Source of the DNA: Candidatus Gastranaerophilales bacterium
GTDB lineage: Bacteria > Cyanobacteriota > Vampirovibrionia > Gastranaerophilales > Gastranaerophilaceae
NCBI GenBank assembly: GCA_944324305.1
Contig: CALUVV010000007.1
Span: 1 to 64,000 of the forward strand
Reading direction: 5' to 3'
Length of the DNA stretch: 64,000 bases
A program made the position numbers and the translations under genes. The notes under the pieces are model-generated. The model was not told the DNA's origin. It searched no databases and saw only the letters and a program-made list of their open reading frames with translations. Positions 2,270 to 56,041 of this stretch are shown here, piece after piece. The first letter of the stretch is position 1, and each line of letters begins with the position of its first letter.

Positions 2270-2716
2270 ATGATTATTGATAATCTAAAAAATATTTCAA
2301 ATTATAATTTTATTTCACAAAATGTTATAGATTTTTTAACGGGTTTAAATTCACAAACGGAAACCGGACATTATGAGATAGATGAACATTCATATGCAAA
2401 TGTTGATATTTATGATACAAAAAATTCGTGCATCTGCAAATTTGAGGCTCATAAAAAATACATTGATATACAAATGCTTCTTTCGGGGAAAGAAGAACTT
2501 GATTTTATGCCCGCAGAAGGATTAATTGTTTGCGAAGAATATGACGATAAACGGGATATTATGTTTTTTGAAAACCCCGATAAAATTTCCGACAGGGTAA
2601 TTCTTGAACCGGGTAAGTTTGCTTTAATTTTTCCGCATGAAGCTCATAAGCCTCAAATGAATATTTGCGGCAATTCCGAACAAGTTAAGAAAGTTGTGGT
2701 AAAAATATTAGTTTGA
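2270..2716 (+). CDS. YhcH/YjgK/YiaL family protein
   Basis: 148 residues with the pattern of the YhcH/YjgK/YiaL (DUF386) cupin-like family: CKFEAHKKYIDIQMLLSGKEELDF near the middle and PGKFALIFPHEAHKPQM near the C-terminus, whose His residues and Glu are the usual metal-site candidates. Members occur in sialic-acid and other sugar catabolic operons, but their reaction is not settled. Begins two bases after the transketolase stop, so translation is probably coupled. The stop overlaps by nine bases with the convergent gene on the other strand. Confidence 0.85.
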   Translation: MIIDNLKNISNYNFISQNVIDFLTGLNSQTETGHYEIDEHSYANVDIYDTKNSCICKFEAHKKYIDIQMLLSGKEELDFMPAEGLIVCEEYDDKRDIMFFENPDKISDRVILEPGKFALIFPHEAHKPQMNICGNSEQVKKVVVKILV

Positions 2717-3715
2717 TTTTTCCGTTTTATTATTTTTATTCTTGCCTGTAAATGCAGGTTTTACAACTTTTTTAATTACAAAATGTTCAACAAAATTATC
2801 AATGGGTTTAATAGCAATACCAAGAGCAATAAAACCGCCTATGGTTTTTAATATTTTTGCATTCATAATTTTGCTTTTTTGATATTTTTTAATAATATCT
2901 TCTGATGCATCTCTTAAGAATGTGGCTTTATAATCAGGATCTTTTGCATATTTATCCTTAAGTTTTCCGAATTTTTTCCACAATTTTGATGAGAATTCTG
3001 CAGGTTTTCTGTCATTTTTCAAATCATCATAAATTTTAAACATATTATCAATATGAGTGTCAGCATACTTGAGAACTCTGTCTTTTTGAGACATTGCAAG
3101 CGATTCCGGATGTCTGCGTCCGAATATGGCATCTCCTAAAAATTTTAACGGATTTTTTATTTTGTTTTCTCTGATTAATTTTTCACGTTTTGTAATTAAC
3201 GATTCTCTGAAATGTTCCTTGAAGCTTGAAATATCGTTTGCGTAGTTATCAATATGGCGTCTGCTTGTAAACTCTTGCAGAAAGTTAATAACTTCTTCTC
3301 TTGATTGTAGTGACAAGCCTGTTTTATCCATAACTCCCATGGCGGAAGCTGTTTTTTGACCTGCGATTACTGCTCCTGTCGGAAGTATTACACTTGCAAG
3401 AAGCTGGAATATAGCTTGTTCCGTACCTCTTTTTCCGTCAGGATTGTAAGAGTTCTTTTCATTTTTATACTTATCATAGATATCAGCGCCAAAATACAGC
3501 ATTGCAGGAAACCATAATAATGTTCCGAGTTTTGGAGCAACTTCGCTTATTGCGGCTCCGAGCTCGTTAGAATATGCTAAACCTCTTGCAGGCCATTGCA
3601 TAAGAGGATCGGAATATGTTTGCTGTTTTTTGACATTCTTATCTGTTTTTTCTTTATTGCCGAATACAGGTGCATTACTTTTACGAGTAATGTTATGAGG
3701 GGTGATTGTAATCAA
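2708..3715 (-). CDS. Uncharacterised membrane-associated protein
   Basis: 335 residues, not recognised. Start is TTG at 3715, with TAGGAG placed about 8 bases upstream. Hydrophobic stretches are visible at LGTLLWFPAMLYFGADIY, QLLASVILPTGAVIAG and near the C-terminus (IGGFIALGIAIKPI), separated by a long basic, helical region (about residues 140-280). There is no obvious signal peptide; the first 45 residues are polar and low in complexity. Its organisation (short polar N-terminus, hydrophobic patches, Lys-rich helices) resembles the proteins at 4040-5254 and 12782-14116, suggesting a loose lineage-specific family. Function unknown. Confidence 0.65.
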   Translation of the reverse strand: MITITPHNITRKSNAPVFGNKEKTDKNVKKQQTYSDPLMQWPARGLAYSNELGAAISEVAPKLGTLLWFPAMLYFGADIYDKYKNEKNSYNPDGKRGTEQAIFQLLASVILPTGAVIAGQKTASAMGVMDKTGLSLQSREEVINFLQEFTSRRHIDNYANDISSFKEHFRESLITKREKLIRENKIKNPLKFLGDAIFGRRHPESLAMSQKDRVLKYADTHIDNMFKIYDDLKNDRKPAEFSSKLWKKFGKLKDKYAKDPDYKATFLRDASEDIIKKYQKSKIMNAKILKTIGGFIALGIAIKPIDNFVEHFVIKKVVKPAFTGKNKNNKTEKSN

Positions 3716-3855: not shown

Positions 3856-3876
3856 TTCAAAAGGAAAAGTAATTTT

Positions 3877-3951
3877 ATGCCAAACTTAAATTTAAACACT
3901 CAACCTTGGTGGCACCTGTTTAACGGAACAGGTCTTTTAAGCTGGCAATAA
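3877..3951 (+). CDS. Trp-codon-containing leader peptide
   Basis: A 24-codon reading frame with ribosome-binding site AAGGAAAAG 7-8 bases upstream. It encodes a peptide with tandem Trp codons at 3907-3912 (QPWWH) and a third Trp two codons before the stop (SWQ). Three Trp in 24 residues is extreme, and it sits directly before a hairpin set of attenuator type (next entry). By analogy with trpL-type leaders, the peptide is a sensor of charged tRNA-Trp rather than a functional protein. The downstream protein itself contains no Trp. Confidence 0.75.
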   Translation: MPNLNLNTQPWWHLFNGTGLLSWQ

Positions 3952-4011
3952 GCTGATAATAATTTTTATATTATAAAAATGACCTGTTCTTTATTAGCGG
4001 GTCATTTTTTT
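3914..4011 (+). promoter_or_regulatory. Tryptophan-type transcription attenuator
   Basis: Four segments are visible. Segment 1 ACCTGTT (3914-3920) pairs with segment 2 AACAGGT (3927-3933). Segment 2, as GAACAGGTC (3926-3934), is a perfect 9-base complement of segment 3 GACCTGTTC (3981-3989). Segment 3 as AAAAATGACC (3975-3984) pairs with segment 4 GGTCATTTTT (4000-4009), which ends in a T run, giving a terminator. A ribosome stalled at the tandem Trp codons (3907-3912) would cover segment 1, free segment 2 to hold segment 3, and prevent the terminator. This is the classical trp-operon mechanism, here ahead of an unrecognised membrane protein. Confidence 0.8.
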
Positions 4012-4039
4012 GTTGTCAGTTTATATAAAGGAATTACTA

Positions 4040-5254
4040 ATGAAAACAAATAACATAAATAATATATCATTTACCAATGCGGGAAATATCGGAACAGGAT
4101 TAAAAGCGGCAAGCAAAATTATCGGAATTCAGGAAGGAGGAGCAGGCCTTTCAAATATCAGATTTATTCAGGACAGTGCAACAGGACTTATTCCGAAAGC
4201 TGTATTTGCCCGCAGTAAAGCTGATCTTGGAGAAAATACTTTTTTGGAATTATCAGAATCTGTGCTTGTTTATTATTTTCCTGCAATTTTAGGAGAAGGG
4301 ATTTTCAGAAAAATTTATTCAAAAAAGCTTCCGAATGAATTAAAAAAACAGGTTGCAGCACCTGCAGCAGATTTGTTGAAATCTAATAATACAGCTGCCG
4401 CTAAAAAGTTATTGCCCGTAAAAGCAGCACTTGCTCTAAGTGCTTTTGCAATTCCTCTTGTTGAATATACTCTTAATTACTTTAAAAACTTAATGACATT
4501 AAAGGTATTTAAGCAGGCAGATTTTGAGAATATTGCAAATTTAAACAAAAACAAAGCCGAAAATAAGGAACAGGCGCAAAAAGTTGAAAAGAGTGCAAAA
4601 AAACATATTAAGCTTGCGGGAGGAATTTATGCGGGATGCCTCGCTTTAAGTGCATTGCTTTTTAAACACGGAGAAAACTCTAAGTTTTTGCGCGGTTTAT
4701 CCGAAGCAATTCTTGCACCCGGTAGTAAGTTCTTTAAAAATAATAAAAAGAAAGCAGATTTTTTCAATAAATATTTAAGTCTTGATTTTGCCGATAACAA
4801 CGGTAAGCTCGCTTTAAGCAGAGGACAGCTTACATCATGTGTTCTTGTCGGCGGAGCCGGATATTTCGGGGCTTCGAAAGACAGAGGAAAACAAAATTTC
4901 CTTGAAACATTATTCAGATATCCGCTTGTAGGTTTTTATATTATCTGCGGCAATGAACTTTTGGAAAAAGGTTTCAGAAAACTTCTTTATAAAAACGGAA
5001 AATGCAGAGAACTTATTAACGAAAAATTGGAAGTTCCTCAGTTAAAAGATTTAAGAAAGATTGCCGAAAAACACGGAGGAGATGTTGATGCGGTTTATAA
5101 AAGATTATTAAAACAAAAAGTTCTTATTGCAGGGCTTCCGCTTTTGTTTGGTATCGGTGTAATGGGATTTTTCATAGCAGGAACATCCAACTTATTCACA
5201 AAGTTCAGATACAACAGGGAAGCAAAAATTAAAGAACAGGGAAAAAATAATTAA
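4040..5254 (+). CDS. Uncharacterised multi-pass membrane protein under attenuator control
   Basis: The ATG at 4040 has AAAGGA 8-10 bases upstream and lies past the attenuator terminator; an ATG-less extension to 4010 would run through the terminator and is unlikely. 404 residues, no Trp. Hydrophobic segments: VLVYYFPAILGEGIF, VKAALALSAFAIPLVEYTL, LAGGIYAGCLALSALLF, YPLVGFYIICGNELL and VLIAGLPLLFGIGVMGFFIAG. Basic helical linkers lie between them. The segment FLELSESVLVYYFPAILGE resembles FLDEFGTQAIWLFGIPVYKK of the protein at 12782-14116, so the two are probably distant paralogues. No known family recognised. The Trp-sensing leader would fit a role in amino-acid supply or uptake, but nothing in the protein shows this. 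Confidence 0.75.
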   Translation: MKTNNINNISFTNAGNIGTGLKAASKIIGIQEGGAGLSNIRFIQDSATGLIPKAVFARSKADLGENTFLELSESVLVYYFPAILGEGIFRKIYSKKLPNELKKQVAAPAADLLKSNNTAAAKKLLPVKAALALSAFAIPLVEYTLNYFKNLMTLKVFKQADFENIANLNKNKAENKEQAQKVEKSAKKHIKLAGGIYAGCLALSALLFKHGENSKFLRGLSEAILAPGSKFFKNNKKKADFFNKYLSLDFADNNGKLALSRGQLTSCVLVGGAGYFGASKDRGKQNFLETLFRYPLVGFYIICGNELLEKGFRKLLYKNGKCRELINEKLEVPQLKDLRKIAEKHGGDVDAVYKRLLKQKVLIAGLPLLFGIGVMGFFIAGTSNLFTKFRYNREAKIKEQGKNN

Positions 5255-11709: not shown

Positions 11710-12805
11710 AGTTGCGATTATAGGCGGCGGACCTGCAGGCTGTATTTGCGCATATTTTTTGCAGAATAATTTTGAAGTGACAGTTTTTGACAAAAGCACT
11801 CCTTTAAAAACAATATTGCCTACCGGCGGCGGGAAATGCAATCTTTGCCATGCCGAATTTGATTTTAAAGAGCTTGCTTCAAATTATCCGCGCGGTGAAA
11901 AATTTCTTTACTCTGCGTTTTCAAAATTCTGTACTGCCGAAACACTCAATTTTTTTGAAAATATAGGAATAAAGACTTATATCCGTGATGATATGAGAGT
12001 TTTTCCCGTTTCAAACAGCTCGGCAGACGTCAGAGAAAAATTTCTTAATGCATTGAAAAAGGTTAAATTTATAAAAGAAGAGGCATTAAGAATTAATGAA
12101 GGGTTTTCGGTTGTAACGAATATGGGTGCCTATAAGGCGGATTATGTTGTTATTGCTGTCGGCGGGCATGCGTCTTACGATCTAATCAAAATGCTGGGAC
12201 ATAAAATTATTCAGCCTAAACCTGCACTTGTCGGATTAAAAACACAGGAAGATTTTTCTTCATTAAGCGGTGTTTCTATAAACGGCATTCTGTTTACGCA
12301 TAAGGGGATTTCAGGGCCTGAAGTTTACAAAATATCATCACTGAGAGCAAGGGATAATTTTCCTTATAAATTAACCTTTGATTTTATCGGCGATATTGAC
12401 CTTCAGGCTGAATTGAATAAAAATCCTCATAAAAGCATTAAAAATTTACTGGGTGAGCATGTCCCGAAATCGTTTTCCGAATTCTGCCTGTGTGAATTGA
12501 ATATTATTCCTGACGAGAAATGTCATTCTATTGACGGAAAAACACGTGACAAAATTCTGAATAAACTCCGGCATTTTGAACTAACCGTTATCGGAACGGC
12601 ACCTGACGGCGAAGTTGTAACATGCGGCGGTGTTGATTTAAAAGAAATTAACCCTAAAACCATGGAATCCAAACTTGTTCCGAAAATATATTTTTGCGGT
12701 GAAGTTATGGATATTGACGGTTTTTGCGGCGGGTTTAATCTTCAAAACTGCTGGTCAACAGGATTTGCAGCAGCTCAAAGCTTAAATTTTACCCTTGGCG
12801 GCTAA
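11687..12805 (+). CDS. BaiN/HI0933-like flavoprotein (NAD(P)/FAD-dependent oxidoreductase)
   Basis: 372 residues. N-terminal Rossmann fold VAIIGGGPAGCICAYFL and the family-specific LPTGGGKCNLC; later VVIAVGGHASYDL, FTHKGISGPEVYKIS, and C-terminal VTCGGVDLKEINPKTMESK...YFCGEVMDIDGFCGGFNLQNCWSTGFAA. This is the HI0933/BaiN/RdsA family of FAD proteins, about 400 residues, whose natural substrates are mostly unknown (BaiN acts on bile-acid intermediates). It starts inside folK and is likely translationally coupled to it. The end overlaps the convergent gene by 24 bases. Confidence 0.88.
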   Translation: MAHELKSKVAIIGGGPAGCICAYFLQNNFEVTVFDKSTPLKTILPTGGGKCNLCHAEFDFKELASNYPRGEKFLYSAFSKFCTAETLNFFENIGIKTYIRDDMRVFPVSNSSADVREKFLNALKKVKFIKEEALRINEGFSVVTNMGAYKADYVVIAVGGHASYDLIKMLGHKIIQPKPALVGLKTQEDFSSLSGVSINGILFTHKGISGPEVYKISSLRARDNFPYKLTFDFIGDIDLQAELNKNPHKSIKNLLGEHVPKSFSEFCLCELNIIPDEKCHSIDGKTRDKILNKLRHFELTVIGTAPDGEVVTCGGVDLKEINPKTMESKLVPKIYFCGEVMDIDGFCGGFNLQNCWSTGFAAAQSLNFTLGG

Positions 12806-14116
12806 TTCTTTTTTCAGATCTTCTTTAACCTGAAAAGCATTATTGTCCTTGTCAAGTTTTCTGAAAGCAATCATAAGTGCAGGGGCAAGTATACCAAGTG
12901 CACCGATACATGCTCCCATATTTTTCAGAATTGATCTTCTTTTCAGTTTTTTTACATTGTCGAGGAAGGCTTCAAGTGTCTTTTCTTTTACGTCAGCATT
13001 TTTGAATTCTTCGAATTTGTTTTGAAGTTTAGTTAATTTTTCAGCCACACCTCTGAATTCGTCATAATCTATGAATTTTCTGTAATCAACGTTATCAGCC
13101 TGTTTTGCATTTTTAAGAACAGGCAGTACATCTGATTTTTTAGCCATTTGAACAACAAAATCATCAGGGTTATTGTGAATAAAACCAAGCAGTTCTTCAT
13201 GAGTTCTGAGAGCTAAAACTTTGTTGCTGCTTTCTGTCAGTTTTCCGTTTTCAAAAGCCTCTTTAAGTTCTTTGCTTTCTATAACTCTTGCATCCAAATC
13301 GATTGACGCGGGGTTCTTTTTGTTCTTTTCTGCTGCCTGTTCGAGGAATTTTTGAATAGGTTTGCTTGCAAAGTACATAAACAGCCACACAGAACCTTCT
13401 TTAATTGTATACCCTAATAATTCTTGTTTGTTTCTTGATTCTGCAAGTCTTTCAGCAGTTATTGCTCCGTCTAAAATCATAAGGTTTTTAACGGGGTTGT
13501 ACATAAATTCCTGTATGCTTCCCGTAAAGGTAGTTTGTTTCTTAAATTTAACATTATTAAAGGCGGAGGATGTGGGGGCTGTGTAGGCAAAAGTGTCTTT
13601 GTTTTTCTTTTCTGCTGCCATTTCTGCAATAATTTCTTTTTCTGCGTCTTTTCTGGTCTTGTAGTGTCTGTATTTTGTTAATCCCGCATAAGACGCGATG
13701 GTTAGTGCAGTGGATACCACAAATTTTGTCATGGCAAGATTTTTGGTGTATTTAGGGTTTTTACTTGCCTTAATAATGCTTTCTTTTATTGACGTATCAG
13801 CATATTCTATTGATTTTTCAAGTAATTTGCTTCTCTTATTTGAAAGGTTTCTTACATCAAAATCTGGGTCAATTTTTAAAGCTTTATACATGGTGTAATC
13901 CATAAGCTTTTTGTAAACAGGAATTCCGAAAAGCCATATGGCTTGCGTTCCGAATTCGTCAAGAAATCTGTCTTTCCCTTCGAGCTTATCTCCCGTAATA
14001 TATGAACCTGCGGTTAAACCTGCGCTGTTAGCTACATCTTTAATAGCCATCGGTACAAGCGAGTTATTGTTTCCTAATGTTGAATATATTTTTCCAGCAG
14101 TAATTGCCTGTAACAT
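12782..14116 (-). CDS. Uncharacterised membrane protein, lineage family
   Basis: Start set at ATG 14116 (MLQAITAGKIYST), with GGAAAGGG 6 bases upstream; the frame is open to 14137 but without a better start. 444 residues. Membrane segments are likely at FGTQAIWLFGIPVYKKLM, TKFVVSTALTIASYAGLT, EGSVWLFMYFASKPI and MGACIGALGILAPALMIAF, separated by long Lys/Glu-rich helical stretches. FLDEFGTQAIWLFGIP recalls FLELSESVLVYYFPAI of the protein at 4040-5254. No known domain recognised. A short transcript unit with its own promoter, mini-ORF and terminator lies upstream (14325-14487). Confidence 0.7.
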   Translation of the reverse strand: MLQAITAGKIYSTLGNNNSLVPMAIKDVANSAGLTAGSYITGDKLEGKDRFLDEFGTQAIWLFGIPVYKKLMDYTMYKALKIDPDFDVRNLSNKRSKLLEKSIEYADTSIKESIIKASKNPKYTKNLAMTKFVVSTALTIASYAGLTKYRHYKTRKDAEKEIIAEMAAEKKNKDTFAYTAPTSSAFNNVKFKKQTTFTGSIQEFMYNPVKNLMILDGAITAERLAESRNKQELLGYTIKEGSVWLFMYFASKPIQKFLEQAAEKNKKNPASIDLDARVIESKELKEAFENGKLTESSNKVLALRTHEELLGFIHNNPDDFVVQMAKKSDVLPVLKNAKQADNVDYRKFIDYDEFRGVAEKLTKLQNKFEEFKNADVKEKTLEAFLDNVKKLKRRSILKNMGACIGALGILAPALMIAFRKLDKDNNAFQVKEDLKKELAAKGKI

Positions 14117-14160
14117 TTTTCCCTTTCCTTTGCACAAAAAGTGCTTCTCAAAAACCTAAA

Positions 14161-14244
14161 CTACAGCCCCCATATTAAGTTCATCAGCTTGACGATTGGG
14201 GAATTCGTCATGGTTATTGAGTTTCGTCGGATAAATTTTGTCAT
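14161..14244 (-). CDS. Possible 27-residue upstream ORF
   Basis: ATG at 14244 with AAAGGTAG 6-9 bases upstream, ending in TAG 45 bases before the start of the membrane protein gene. The peptide is basic then hydrophobic and ends IWGL. It may be a leader or a small protein; length alone makes it uncertain. Confidence 0.3.
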   Translation of the reverse strand: MTKFIRRNSITMTNSPIVKLMNLIWGL

Positions 14245-14324
14245 GTAACTACCTTTCACTTTTTTTATAAATACACTGAATAATTTTTCTTGCCTTAAAT
14301 CGGCTTAATTTTAACGATTATTAA

Positions 14325-14353
14325 CAAAAAAAGACCTTTCGGGGGGAAAGGTC
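14325..14353 (-). terminator. Strong hairpin terminator upstream of membrane protein gene
   Basis: On the minus strand GACCTTT (14353-14347)-CCCCCCG-AAAGGTC (14339-14333) followed by seven T. It lies about 210 bases before the start of the gene at 14116 and after a promoter-like sequence at 14460-14487, so it could be an attenuator or the end of a small RNA. Confidence 0.65.
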
Positions 14354-14399
14354 AAGTAATAAAAAATCTTTTTTACGACAAAAGTAAGTGCCTTATTTT

Positions 14400-14487
14400 T
14401 TACAACAAGCCTTTCATAATACTTACAATTCGTCGGATTTCGTTTTTAATCATATTAATATTATACATAGTCAAAAATTTTTGTAAA
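14400..14487 (-). promoter_or_regulatory. Promoter-like sequence with 17-residue mini-ORF
   Basis: Minus strand: TTTACA (14487-14482), 16-base spacer, TATAAT (14465-14460), then an ATG at 14453 opening a 17-codon frame that ends at 14400. The terminator at 14325-14353 follows. Together they predict a transcript of about 130 bases from this otherwise empty stretch. Confidence 0.4.
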
Positions 14488-14670: not shown

Positions 14671-15437
14671 TTATTTTATAAAATCTTTCCAGTAACTTTT
14701 TGTTTTATCTTCAGGGTTAATATCCGTTACAGCCCAGTAGGCGCAGCCCATCCCGTTAAAATTCGATGTACCTGTTTTTGAACATTCCGTAAATGATGAA
14801 CTTCCGTTAGCTGTATCATTTACGGTTGAAGGATTGCCTAACGGAATTACTTTTCCGTTTTCCGTCGGTCTGAATGCGAACATGTCTACACCAAGCTGGT
14901 TTGGCCGTTTATGATAACCGTTTATGTCAACGGTTATTATAGGACATTTTCTTCTGCTTGTCTCTCCGTATTCAAAGTAAAATGTACGTTTTTGTAAATC
15001 TGCCACCGAGCCGTCATCAAAATAAGATGTATGTGCATTCCCGCCGGATACGGTTTTTATGTTGTCAATTCCTAAATTATTAATATATTCACCGTTTCCC
15101 TGATAATATTTAATAAATTTTCTTGATAATTCTTTTGATGCATCCATAACTTCAAGTCCGGAATCTACAAGCATCCAGTCATATTCACACATGTTCATTT
15201 CTTCATCATTGATGAAACTTAAATTAACCTGCTGCAATTCACTGTAAGCCTTTTTTAATTCGGTTTTAAGAACTTCTTTTCTGTGATTTGCTATTAAAGA
15301 CGGCATAGTAAGTGATGCAACAACCCCGATTATCCCTAATGTAATTAATACTTCCGCCAGAGTAAATCCGCATCTCCCTTCATTTACAGGTGTATTTTCG
15401 GGGGGGGGGCAATTCTTTCTGCTTCTTGATTGAACAT
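14671..15437 (-). CDS. Prepilin-like protein, out of frame at a C10 (G10) run in its leader
   Basis: The ATG at 15437 has GGAGG 7 bases upstream and starts a leader that runs into ten C on the coding strand (15409-15400). As written, translation ends at a TAA soon after the run. With one extra C the frame continues through GFTLAEVLITLGIIGVV, a typical type IV prepilin site with Glu at +5, to a 255-residue protein whose body is open from 15306 to 14671. The C-terminal domain has VDINGYHKRPNQLGVDMFAF and ends near YWKDFIK, close to the pilin-like gene at 20937-21657. Expected to be processed by prepilin peptidase and incorporated in, or secreted by, a type IV pilus-like machine. Exact role unknown. 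Confidence 0.8.
15400..15409. repeat. G10 homopolymer in prepilin leader (gene on minus strand)
   Basis: Ten G on the plus strand (C on the coding strand), flanked by C on both sides. One-base gain or two-base loss restores the prepilin frame of the gene at 14671-15437. Confidence 0.85.
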
Positions 15438-20936: not shown

Positions 20937-21657
20937 ATGAAAAATCTATTAAAAACTGTCGGGGGGGGGGCAATTCTGTAGCTCCCAAACCTGCATTTAC
21001 ATTAGCAGAGGTTTTAATTACTCTTGGAATTATTGGAATTATTGCGGCTTTAACCTTCCTGCGGTTATAAATAACACTCAAAAGAAAGAGCGCAGAGAGG
21101 CTTTAAAAAAGGCGTATTCCGTTTTACAGCAGGCATTGCTGATGTATCAAAAAGATACAGGTGAAGATATAACACTTACTACTTTTAATACAGAAACTGA
21201 AGCCTTAAAAAAAGCTATTTTACCGTATTTTAACGGCGCGATTGATTGCGGCAAAGGCACAGAAAATACCGCGTGCCTATATAGCGGCATTGAAACTAAT
21301 AAATATAAAAATTATAATAATACTAACGGAGCCCCGAAAGCGTATCTTGATGACGGGCAATACGTTGCTATAGACGGAATGATGTACTTTTTTGAAAATT
21401 ATGGCACTTCCTCTGAGGGAGCTACAGGGCGTGTATTTATATTTGTTGACGTTAACGGCTTTAACCGAAAACCTAATCAATTAGGCAGAGATTTATTTGC
21501 TTTTCAGTTAGTTGAAAACGGAAAGATGTTACCTGTCGGAGCAGATAAAACTTATTATGACGAAAATGTATACTGCTCAAAAACATCAGCAAGTTCTTAT
21601 AACGGTATTGCATGCACAAACAGAGCACTGTATGACAGCAGCTTTTGGAAAGATTAA
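20937..21657 (+). pseudogene. Prepilin-like gene with G10 run and a second frameshift
   Basis: ATG at 20937 (AAAGGAGCAAGA upstream) begins MKNLLKTV, then ten G (20961-20970); as written it stops four codons later. With one extra G the frame gives ...PAFTLAEVLITLGIIGIIAALT, a normal prepilin start, but a second one-base loss near 21053-21060 (around ACCTTCCTG, expected to encode a Pro-Ala-Val segment) breaks it again. The remaining body is open from before 21136 to 21657 and ends SFWKD. Repairing both gives 240 residues. The C-terminal domain (VDVNGFNRKPNQLGRDLFAF) matches the gene at 14671-15437. It may be a true pseudogene or carry a sequence error at the second site. Confidence 0.7.
20961..20970. 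repeat. G10 homopolymer in prepilin leader
   Basis: Ten G flanked by C on both sides, eight codons after the ATG at 20937. Confidence 0.85.
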
Positions 21658-41241: not shown

Positions 41242-41936
41242 ATGAAAAACTTATTAAATTATGTAATTCGGGGGGGGGGCGTAATCTAAGCTCTGCTCAC
41301 GCTTTTACTTTGGCTGAGGTTCTTGTTACATTAGGTATTATTGGCGTAGTATCCGCCATGACCGTTCCGTCTTTGATGCAAAATCATCAGCGAAAAACTT
41401 ATGTAACCCAATTGCATAAAGTTTATAATGAACTATCTCAGGCTCTCTTGCAATATCAGACTGATAAAAATGCCGTTAATCTAAAAGAAGCAGGATTAAC
41501 TTCACAGGCTGCTGTAAATGAATTTATAACAAATTATTTTAAAATTGTGCAAAGCTGTGAAAAGACAGCTCCTTGTTTAGCATCTGATTATAAGCATATC
41601 GCAGGGCAGGCAGGTGTATTTGAAAAGACAAATTCTTATGTATTGAGCAGTGGAGCATCTGTCAGACCGAGATATTATCCGGAAGGTAATCTTTTATTGT
41701 CGTTTGTCGTTGATACCAATGGACAGAAGGGACCGAATATAATAGGTCGAGATTTAATTGTTATGTATGTATATAGCAATGGGCTGATAGATGATTATTT
41801 ATCAGACAATATGCCTCCTTTTACAGAAGAGATAAGAGAAACTCTTTTTGCACAAGCTTGTAATTCTTCTTCGTCTACCAGTGTATATGGCTGTTTCGGA
41901 AAAATACTCAATGATAATTGGGAAATGACGTATTAA
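41242..41936 (+). CDS. Prepilin-like protein, out of frame at a G10 run
   Basis: ATG 41242 (GAAAGGAGCG upstream) starts MKNLLNYVIR, then ten G (41270-41279), and as written stops after GVI. One extra G gives RNLSSAHAFTLAEVLVTLGIIGVV, a prepilin site cleaved before Phe with Glu +5, and a 231-residue protein; the body alone is open from a TTG at 41310, which lacks a ribosome-binding site and would remove the leader. Residues after the helix (MQNHQRKTYVTQLHKVYNELSQALLQYQ) and the end (YGCFGKILNDNWEMTY) are shared with the genes at 51959 and 55308; the middle differs. Exported pilin-like protein, role unknown. Confidence 0.82.
41270..41279. repeat. G10 homopolymer in prepilin leader
   Basis: Ten G flanked by C on both sides, nine codons after ATG 41242. 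Confidence 0.85.
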
Positions 41937-51958: not shown

Positions 51959-52656
51959 ATGAACAATTTTATTAGGTTTGCAACTCGGGGGGGGGGCATT
52001 TCTTAGCTCCTTCTAAGGGTTTTACGTTAGCAGAAGTCTTGGTCACTTTGGGTATAATAGGTGTAGTCTCTGCAATGACCGTACCTGCATTGATGCAAAA
52101 TCACCAGAGAAAGACTTATGTAACCCAATTACATAAAGTTTATAATGAACTTAATCAAGTTTTAATGCAATATCAGAACGATAAAAATGCCTTAAATTTA
52201 ATGGAAGCCGGTTTAACATCAACAGCGGCAGTTCAAAATATTATCACCACTTACATGAAAGTAGTATCTACTTGTGATAATGCTTCAGCACCTTGTTTTT
52301 CTGATAAATATAAATATATAAACGGAACGGATGTTTCTACAGGTTCATTTACCAGTACGTCAAAATCTTTCGTTCTATCAAGCGGTGTTGCTATAAGGCC
52401 AATATACAGTAAACCATCAACGTTTAAAATAGCCAATTTTATGGTGGATATAAACGGACAAAAAGGGCCTAATGTCGCAGGCAGGGATTTATTCTTTTTA
52501 TATTTATATTCTAACGGAGTTATAGATGACGGTCCTGATAATGCAGCATATAATGCTCCATTAACAAAAGAACAGAGAGAAGCTATGAATTGCGAAGCAT
52601 CTCTAAACGGTTGTTTCGGCCGGTTGCTTAATGATAATTGGGAAATGAATTATTGA
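51959..52656 (+). CDS. Prepilin-like protein, out of frame at a G10 run
   Basis: ATG 51959 with GAAAGGAGAT upstream starts MNNFIRFATR, then ten G (51987-51996); as written it ends two codons after (TAG). One extra G gives HFLAPSKGFTLAEVLVTLGIIGVV, with G-F cleavage and Glu +5, and a 232-residue protein; the body is open from 52039. MQNHQRKTYVTQLHKVYNELNQVLMQYQNDKNALNL and the end GCFGRLLNDNWEMNY are shared with the 41242 and 55308 genes; VDINGQKGPNVAGRDLF is the family's calcium-loop-like segment. A terminator follows. Confidence 0.82.
51987..51996. repeat. G10 homopolymer in prepilin leader
   Basis: Ten G flanked by C on both sides, nine codons after ATG 51959. Confidence 0.85.
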
Positions 52657-55307: not shown

Positions 55308-56041
55308 ATGAAAAACTTATTAAATTATGTAATTCGGGGGGGGGGCGTAATCTAAGCTCTGCTCACGCTTTTACTTTGGCTGAGGTTCTTGTTACATTAG
55401 GTATTATTGGCGTTGTATCTGCCATGACCGTTCCGTCTTTGATGCAAAATCATCAGCGTAAAACTTATGTAACCCAATTACATAAAGTTTATAATGAATT
55501 ACAGCAGGCTATGATGCAGTATCAAAATGACAAAAACGCATTGAATTTAAAAGAAGCAGGCTTGACGAGTAGAGAGTGTGTAAAAACGTTTCTAAACGAA
55601 TATTTAAAGATTATACAGGGTTGTGATGGAATTGTTGCTCCGTGTTTTGCCTCATCGTATAAAAATATAAATAGCGGAGCTGTCTCTGTAAGTTCTGTTT
55701 GGAACGGTTATTGTGTGACAATGGCAAGCGGTTCTTCTTTTTGTATGGATTACCCGACTTTGTATGACGGTTCCTGGGGATACGTATTTATAGATATAAA
55801 CGGAACACAAGGTCCTAATATTCTCGGACGTGATGCATTTTATCTTGCAGTTTTTACTGATGGTGTTTTAGATGTTACGGGTGCGGATATTAACTGCAGA
55901 ACAAACGGTATTTGCGGAGCAGAAGGTGCTTCTCTAAAAGACGTAAGAGGAACGGCAGATGCTTGTAAAGCAGGAACTGGCAGTTCCGCACAGAGTTGTT
56001 TCGGCCAAATACTCAACGATAACTGGGAGATGAATTATTAA
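55308..56041 (+). CDS. Prepilin-like protein, out of frame at a G10 run
   Basis: The first 100 bases from ATG 55308 are almost identical to those at 41242, including the ten G (55336-55345) and the stop shortly after. One extra G gives a 244-residue prepilin with HAFTLAEVLVTLGIIGVV; the body is open from 55376. N-terminal MQNHQRKTYVTQLHKVYNELQQAMMQYQNDKNALNL and C-terminal CFGQILNDNWEMNY are shared, while the middle (VDINGTQGPNILGRDAFYLAVF...) and several extra Cys are its own. The stop overlaps the convergent PilB-like gene by four bases. Confidence 0.82.
55336..55345. repeat. G10 homopolymer in prepilin leader
   Basis: Ten G flanked by C on both sides, nine codons after ATG 55308. Confidence 0.85.

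Follow-up and report, generated by a model that had tools for sequence, protein, structure and literature searches.

What does a complete trp-type attenuator control when the gene behind it belongs to no recognised family? This question arose at one locus of a Candidatus Gastranaerophilales genome, within a stretch of 64,000 nucleotides that was analysed as a whole (hereafter the window), and the features described below lie on its forward strand except where the minus strand is indicated.

Leader, alternative helices and controlled gene

The leader peptide ORF of 24 codons with WW and a further W that had been proposed in the initial annotation was present at 3877-3951 (MPNLNLNTQPWWHLFNGTGLLSWQ, then a stop). 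An SD-like sequence, AAGGAAAAG, could be read in front of it (3861-3869), and the nearest relatives have the same GGAAAAGTAATTTTATG in this region. The tandem Trp codons at 3907-3912, invariant in an alignment of 36 leaders, are the control codons. The third Trp codon (3943-3945) is the second-last sense codon and was retained in the 24-codon leader class; a ribosome stalled there would mask segment 2 and favour termination, and the explanation preferred below does not account for this codon.

Segment 1, ACCTGTTT (3914-3921), begins 7 nt past position 3907, where the WW codons start, and is the partner of segment 2, GGAACAGGTC (3925-3934), which can pair instead with segment 3, GACCTGTTCT (3981-3990). 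Segment 3 is at once the antiterminator partner of segment 2 and the 5' arm of the terminator hairpin 3:4 (AAAAATGACCTGTT-CTTTATT-AGCGGGTCATTTTT, followed by T's; 3975-4009), which was supported by folding, covariation and a terminator scan. Pairings 1:2 and 3:4 were thus found where they had been placed, while the supposedly perfect 9-base antiterminator exists with a different length, 10 bp, made of nine Watson-Crick pairs and a terminal G-U. The duplex energies of 2:3 and 3:4 are -15.2 and -16.3 kcal/mol, respectively. The fold of the leader RNA reached a z-score of -5.9, not equalled by any shuffle, and one intrinsic terminator was found vs 0.2 expected.

Covariation was analysed in the window-type class, comprising 46 leaders in which the stop nearly always follows the first Trp codon at a distance of 42 nt; 36 of these leaders were aligned. 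Helices 1:2, 2:3 and 3:4 were formed in 91, 87 and 94% of the cells, vs about 19-44% when the segments were slid, and two-sided changes affected four, six and six pairs, respectively. The covariation score of each helix exceeded those of all 500 shuffles; related sequences can beat shuffles in the absence of structure, but the slid versions came nowhere near. Alignment column 22 partners column 13 or column 95 and varies with both. Segment 2 pairs with 1 and 3, and segment 3 with 2 and 4, and this is therefore the mark of alternative pairing. A further covarying helix encloses the terminator, joining the stretch after the leader stop (5' arm GCTGATAATAA, 3952-3962) to that just upstream of the ribosome-binding site (RBS) of the target (3' arm TTGTTGTCAGT, 4010-4020), and may add translational control.

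The controlled gene (4040-5254) encodes a membrane protein of 404 amino acids without a single Trp, as had been claimed, from a family undescribed in Pfam and NCBIfam. All matches in these two databases were under the cut-offs, none of the known amino-acid transporter families was recognised, and no PDB relative was found by sequence. Only three 19-residue windows of the protein are strongly hydrophobic. The AlphaFold (AF2) model of a Trp-group protein was all-helical and confident (pLDDT 89.7), and its comparison with PDB and BFVD (viral) structures gave no convincing fold match (best Foldseek E 0.13; VIA Z 5.2).

Conservation of the leader across the order

A first search detected homologues of the target in 19 of 58 relatives; extended to the order, it detected them in 207 of 383 genomes, the carriers in the named genome collection being mostly Candidatus Gastranaerophilales, plus Candidatus Scatousia and Avigastranaerophilus. 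The upstream DNA of 137 family members was inspected. A WW leader ORF was present in all 119 order members of the Trp subfamily with usable upstream DNA, 17 members carried an MMM leader and none carried both; the remaining member lies on a broken contig, with a Met leader on its other half. One Trp and one Met locus were counted twice, which leaves 118 and 16 distinct loci. Dinucleotide shuffles of the upstream regions yielded WW in 14 of 685 cases (about 2%) and MMM in none, and the reverse strand yielded no leaders. In the protein tree the leader type follows the branching, with the Met group forming one side of a fully supported branch.

The antiterminator was conserved as well. With Trp and Met types pooled, helix 2:3 was stronger than the median obtained with shuffled segment 2 in 117 of 121 loci, and it beat all 30 shuffles in 81 of them. 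Hits of a covariance model of the leader with E <1e-5 occurred only in front of family members. Hence, both features whose loss in relatives the initial annotation had named as decisive, the Trp codons and the 2:3 complementarity, are conserved, and its claim of a complete trp-type attenuator is well supported. The leader, its control codons, the alternative pairings and the terminator, along with their conservation, are in this way demonstrated by comparison of sequences. Nine relatives have retained trpA, and no WW leader was seen in the stretches inspected at their trp-gene loci; a WW ORF near the trp genes in L201 was discarded as an unrelated chance ORF.

The output of the switch may differ between clades. 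Other clades have shorter leaders, ending in WWRL or WWRGLV. The U-run intrinsic terminator of the window locus does not occur in every clade, and a considerable share of the Trp group (with leaders ending, e.g., in NWWRGLV) has no obvious one. Some of the short-leader clades without a U-run show a helix that takes in the RBS and may act in place of the terminator; the output step may therefore have moved to translation. Additionally, two remote relatives of the family (L025 and L027, about 28-31% identity) have no evident leader.

Met and His counterparts and avoidance of the trigger amino acid

The sister clade with Met leaders shows the pattern MMMxMMM in 17 of 17 intact members (e.g., MNNITNAMMMNMMMMQ...RM, then a stop), and one copy is present in this genome (contig C11). 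A second membrane-protein family, reached through the window gene 12785-14116, had a His leader at every one of the 30 loci read. One of its genes lies on contig C7 at 65955-67410 (66133), about 2 kb past the right end of the window, with the leader MIKFNSLKLHHTHHHSGLGRL (then a stop) and a His-free membrane protein of 424 amino acids (L193, L262); its leader and RBS region look pairable, which suggests translational control. The profile comparison between the Trp/Met and the His families was not significant, and the two may be unrelated. The helix order is similar in both, and the N-terminus of L025 and L027 resembles both and may bridge them. The model of the His family gave no convincing fold match in the PDB.

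The gene 12785-14116 itself, on the minus strand, is a His-family paralogue preceded by two conserved short ORFs (the whole arrangement spanning 12785-14453). The first, MIKNEIRRIVSIMKGLL (about 14453-14400), is followed by a terminator (about 14353-14334) and the second, MTKFIRRNSITMTNSPIVKLMNLIWGL, lies at about 14244-14161; each closes with a stop, and CCGACGAA (CGA CGA) is common to them. Both were found again in most of the approximately 25 relatives inspected. Arg is not depleted in the paralogue, and these short ORFs may therefore belong to a different type of RNA or leader switch.

A scan of 858 kb (the window and pieces of its genome) for leaders with amino-acid runs recovered the His and Trp leaders. 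Most of its other hits were rejected as leaders, corresponding to G- or C-tract starts of pilins. In these type IV prepilin-like genes, runs of about ten G (or C, on the coding strand) lie in the first codons, with the pilin start out of frame, at 20961-20970, 41270-41279, 51987-51996 and 55336-55345 and, on the minus strand, at 15400-15409; several dozen similar cases occur in the 858 kb, and they look like phase-variable pilins.

The composition of the proteins mirrors their leaders. Trp amounts to 0.1 per 1000 residues in the Trp group, vs 7.1 in the Met, 8.5 in the His and 4.6 in the RR group and 6.6 in the ORFs of the window; His to 0.2 in the His group vs 6.3-14.5 in the others; and Met to 8.1 in the Met group, the lowest value, vs 13.8-24.9. 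Trp is entirely missing from 115 of 119 proteins of the Trp group and His from 28 of 30 of the His group. These sequences are related and their counts not independent, so that p-values computed from them are not to be read literally; nevertheless, the pattern recurs in three groups, and the avoidance, demonstrated like the leaders by comparison, points to proteins that are produced during starvation. A target without Trp can be synthesised while Trp is missing. A low cognate amino-acid bias has been described for biosynthetic enzymes, such as a Trp-free tryptophan synthase alpha (PMC4209129), and these share with the present case that a protein required in starvation is poor in the amino acid then lacking. 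Unlike those enzymes, the present proteins are membrane proteins without a known biosynthetic role, and the avoidance is near-complete. Extreme cognate avoidance is thus seen here outside biosynthesis.

The host probably depends on an external supply of all three amino acids. In a genome that is 99.98% complete, searches for TrpA, IGPS, HisD (histidinol dehydrogenase), MetE and the B12 domain of MetH found none of them; from these absences of key genes, auxotrophy for Trp, His and Met is probable. A trpE candidate was rejected, since the sole Chorismate_bind gene looks like a PabBC fusion beside a pabA-like gene. Across the order, a rough tally by eye did not link the presence of the family strongly to the absence of TrpA.

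The Trp case of the initial annotation does not stand alone: the parallel systems number at least three. We consider it very probable that the locus is a trp-type ribosome-mediated attenuator sensing charged tRNA-Trp, and that it belongs with the Met and His leaders of Candidatus Gastranaerophilales, distributed over two membrane-protein families, to a set that induces trigger-avoiding membrane proteins on starvation; the response to charged tRNA is what we infer from the arrangement of codons and helices. With ample Trp, the ribosome would pass WW, reach the stop and mask segment 2, the 3:4 hairpin would form and transcription would end before the gene. When charged Trp-tRNA is scarce, the ribosome would stall at WW and mask segment 1, segment 2 would be free to pair with segment 3, and the RNA polymerase would read into the gene. 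The product induced would be a Trp-free membrane protein that can be made during the shortage.

Function of the controlled proteins and rival readings

We infer that the proteins take part in the answer to starvation, most likely by contributing to the acquisition of the amino acid in short supply. Regulation of this type is classically found on transporters. With the same attenuator, the proteins could therefore be amino-acid-specific uptake systems or parts of them, a novel class of permeases for Trp, Met and His that are derepressed when their substrate runs short. This plausible though tentative reading agrees with the likely auxotrophy of the host for the three amino acids, with one gene group per amino acid and with the hydrophobic helices of the proteins, but no likeness to any transporter was found in Pfam, NCBIfam, PDB sequences or Foldseek, and three strongly hydrophobic windows in 404 amino acids are few for it. 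The suggestion of a new Trp transporter made in the initial annotation is to this extent compatible with the data, while no family or fold match speaks for it. Its variant, a transporter of a Trp precursor, is unlikely in this genome, because without TrpA and IGPS a precursor such as anthranilate cannot be converted to Trp by the usual route. Its other suggestion, a Trp-starvation response protein, is strongly favoured by the order-wide avoidance of Trp and the avoidance of Met and His in the sister groups.

Such a response need not be uptake. Under the same attenuator, the proteins might be general starvation effectors (e.g., in arrest, in remodelling of the envelope or in freeing nutrients from neighbours), kept in separate copies so that any missing amino acid acts as a trigger. 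Avoidance of the trigger implies merely synthesis during starvation, leaders occur on two families, and the His family goes together with a paralogue in whose leader no amino-acid sensor is evident, all of which fits this slightly less probable reading; against it, no effector domain was found, and dedicated groups for particular amino acids are explained less well than by uptake. Judged by regulation and composition, obtaining the missing amino acid is favoured and a general effector is nearly as likely.

A different switch would be one in which the leader peptide is arrested by free Trp in the ribosome, so that the gene is induced, for catabolism or efflux. TnaC is a leader of 24 codons with Trp codons, and the present leader shares this length and has Trp codons too. 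However, nothing in the peptide is strictly kept except the tandem WW; the peptides end in WQ/WR or RL with no terminal Pro, and the TnaC-type combination of a single essential Trp and a terminal Pro was not found in them. Moreover, an intrinsic terminator and a 2:3 antiterminator exist, the target avoids Trp, and the Met and His counterparts carry other residues, so that Trp-dependent stalling as on TnaC (PMC8429421) is very improbable here. Finally, the probability is practically negligible that ORF and hairpin are coincidental or close a transcription unit that lies upstream: short ORFs are frequent in AT-rich DNA and the unit of the nearest gene upstream (2708-3715) has its end elsewhere, but that gene points away from the leader, so that the terminator at 3975-4009 is not the tail of its unit, order-wide conservation and covariation contradict chance, and sigma70-like elements in front of the leader starts outscore shuffles (the window's own copy is weak).

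The preferred attenuator resembles the Enterobacteriaceae trp leader (Rfam Trp_leader, Yanofsky-type) in its short peptide, the tandem Trp codons by segment 1, and the mutually exclusive pairings 1:2, 2:3 and 3:4 with an intrinsic terminator before the gene. It differs in its target, an unrecognised membrane protein instead of trp genes, in the extra enclosing helix and in its occurrence in an order close to Cyanobacteria; the window leader did not match Rfam Trp_leader at the gathering score or at E up to 1. The His group shares the runs of His codons in a short ORF with his leader attenuators, including the hisS/hisZ leaders of bacilli (PMC2965389), but its target is a His-free membrane protein and its mechanism looks like RBS sequestration. 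Amino-acid transporters under T-box or leader control may follow a common logic, in which uptake is derepressed by uncharged tRNA, but no Rfam T-box match was obtained (other Rfam near-matches were far below their gathering scores) and no similarity to a known transporter was found.

According to a study of 2016, reliable data for attenuation were lacking in cyanobacteria (PMC4833913), and nothing specific to the present bacterial group was found in the open-licence literature. As far as this literature shows, leader-peptide attenuators are known as a kind, while these targets, this taxonomic place and the parallel amino-acid-specific set have not been described. Ribosome-mediated attenuation is thereby extended to an order near Cyanobacteria and to targets not recognised as amino-acid synthesis genes. 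Leader codons, covarying RNA and composition provide three types of clue to the role of unannotated families in common gut bacteria. Tentatively, the starvation system of Gastranaerophilales could be modular, built from membrane proteins not yet described that fall into distinct Trp, Met and His groups, each under its own attenuator and purged of its trigger, and serving as a new type of machinery for acquiring amino acids by which auxotrophs sustain themselves in the gut. Should these proteins prove to be transporters, the way in which such probable auxotrophs compete for the three amino acids would be explained.
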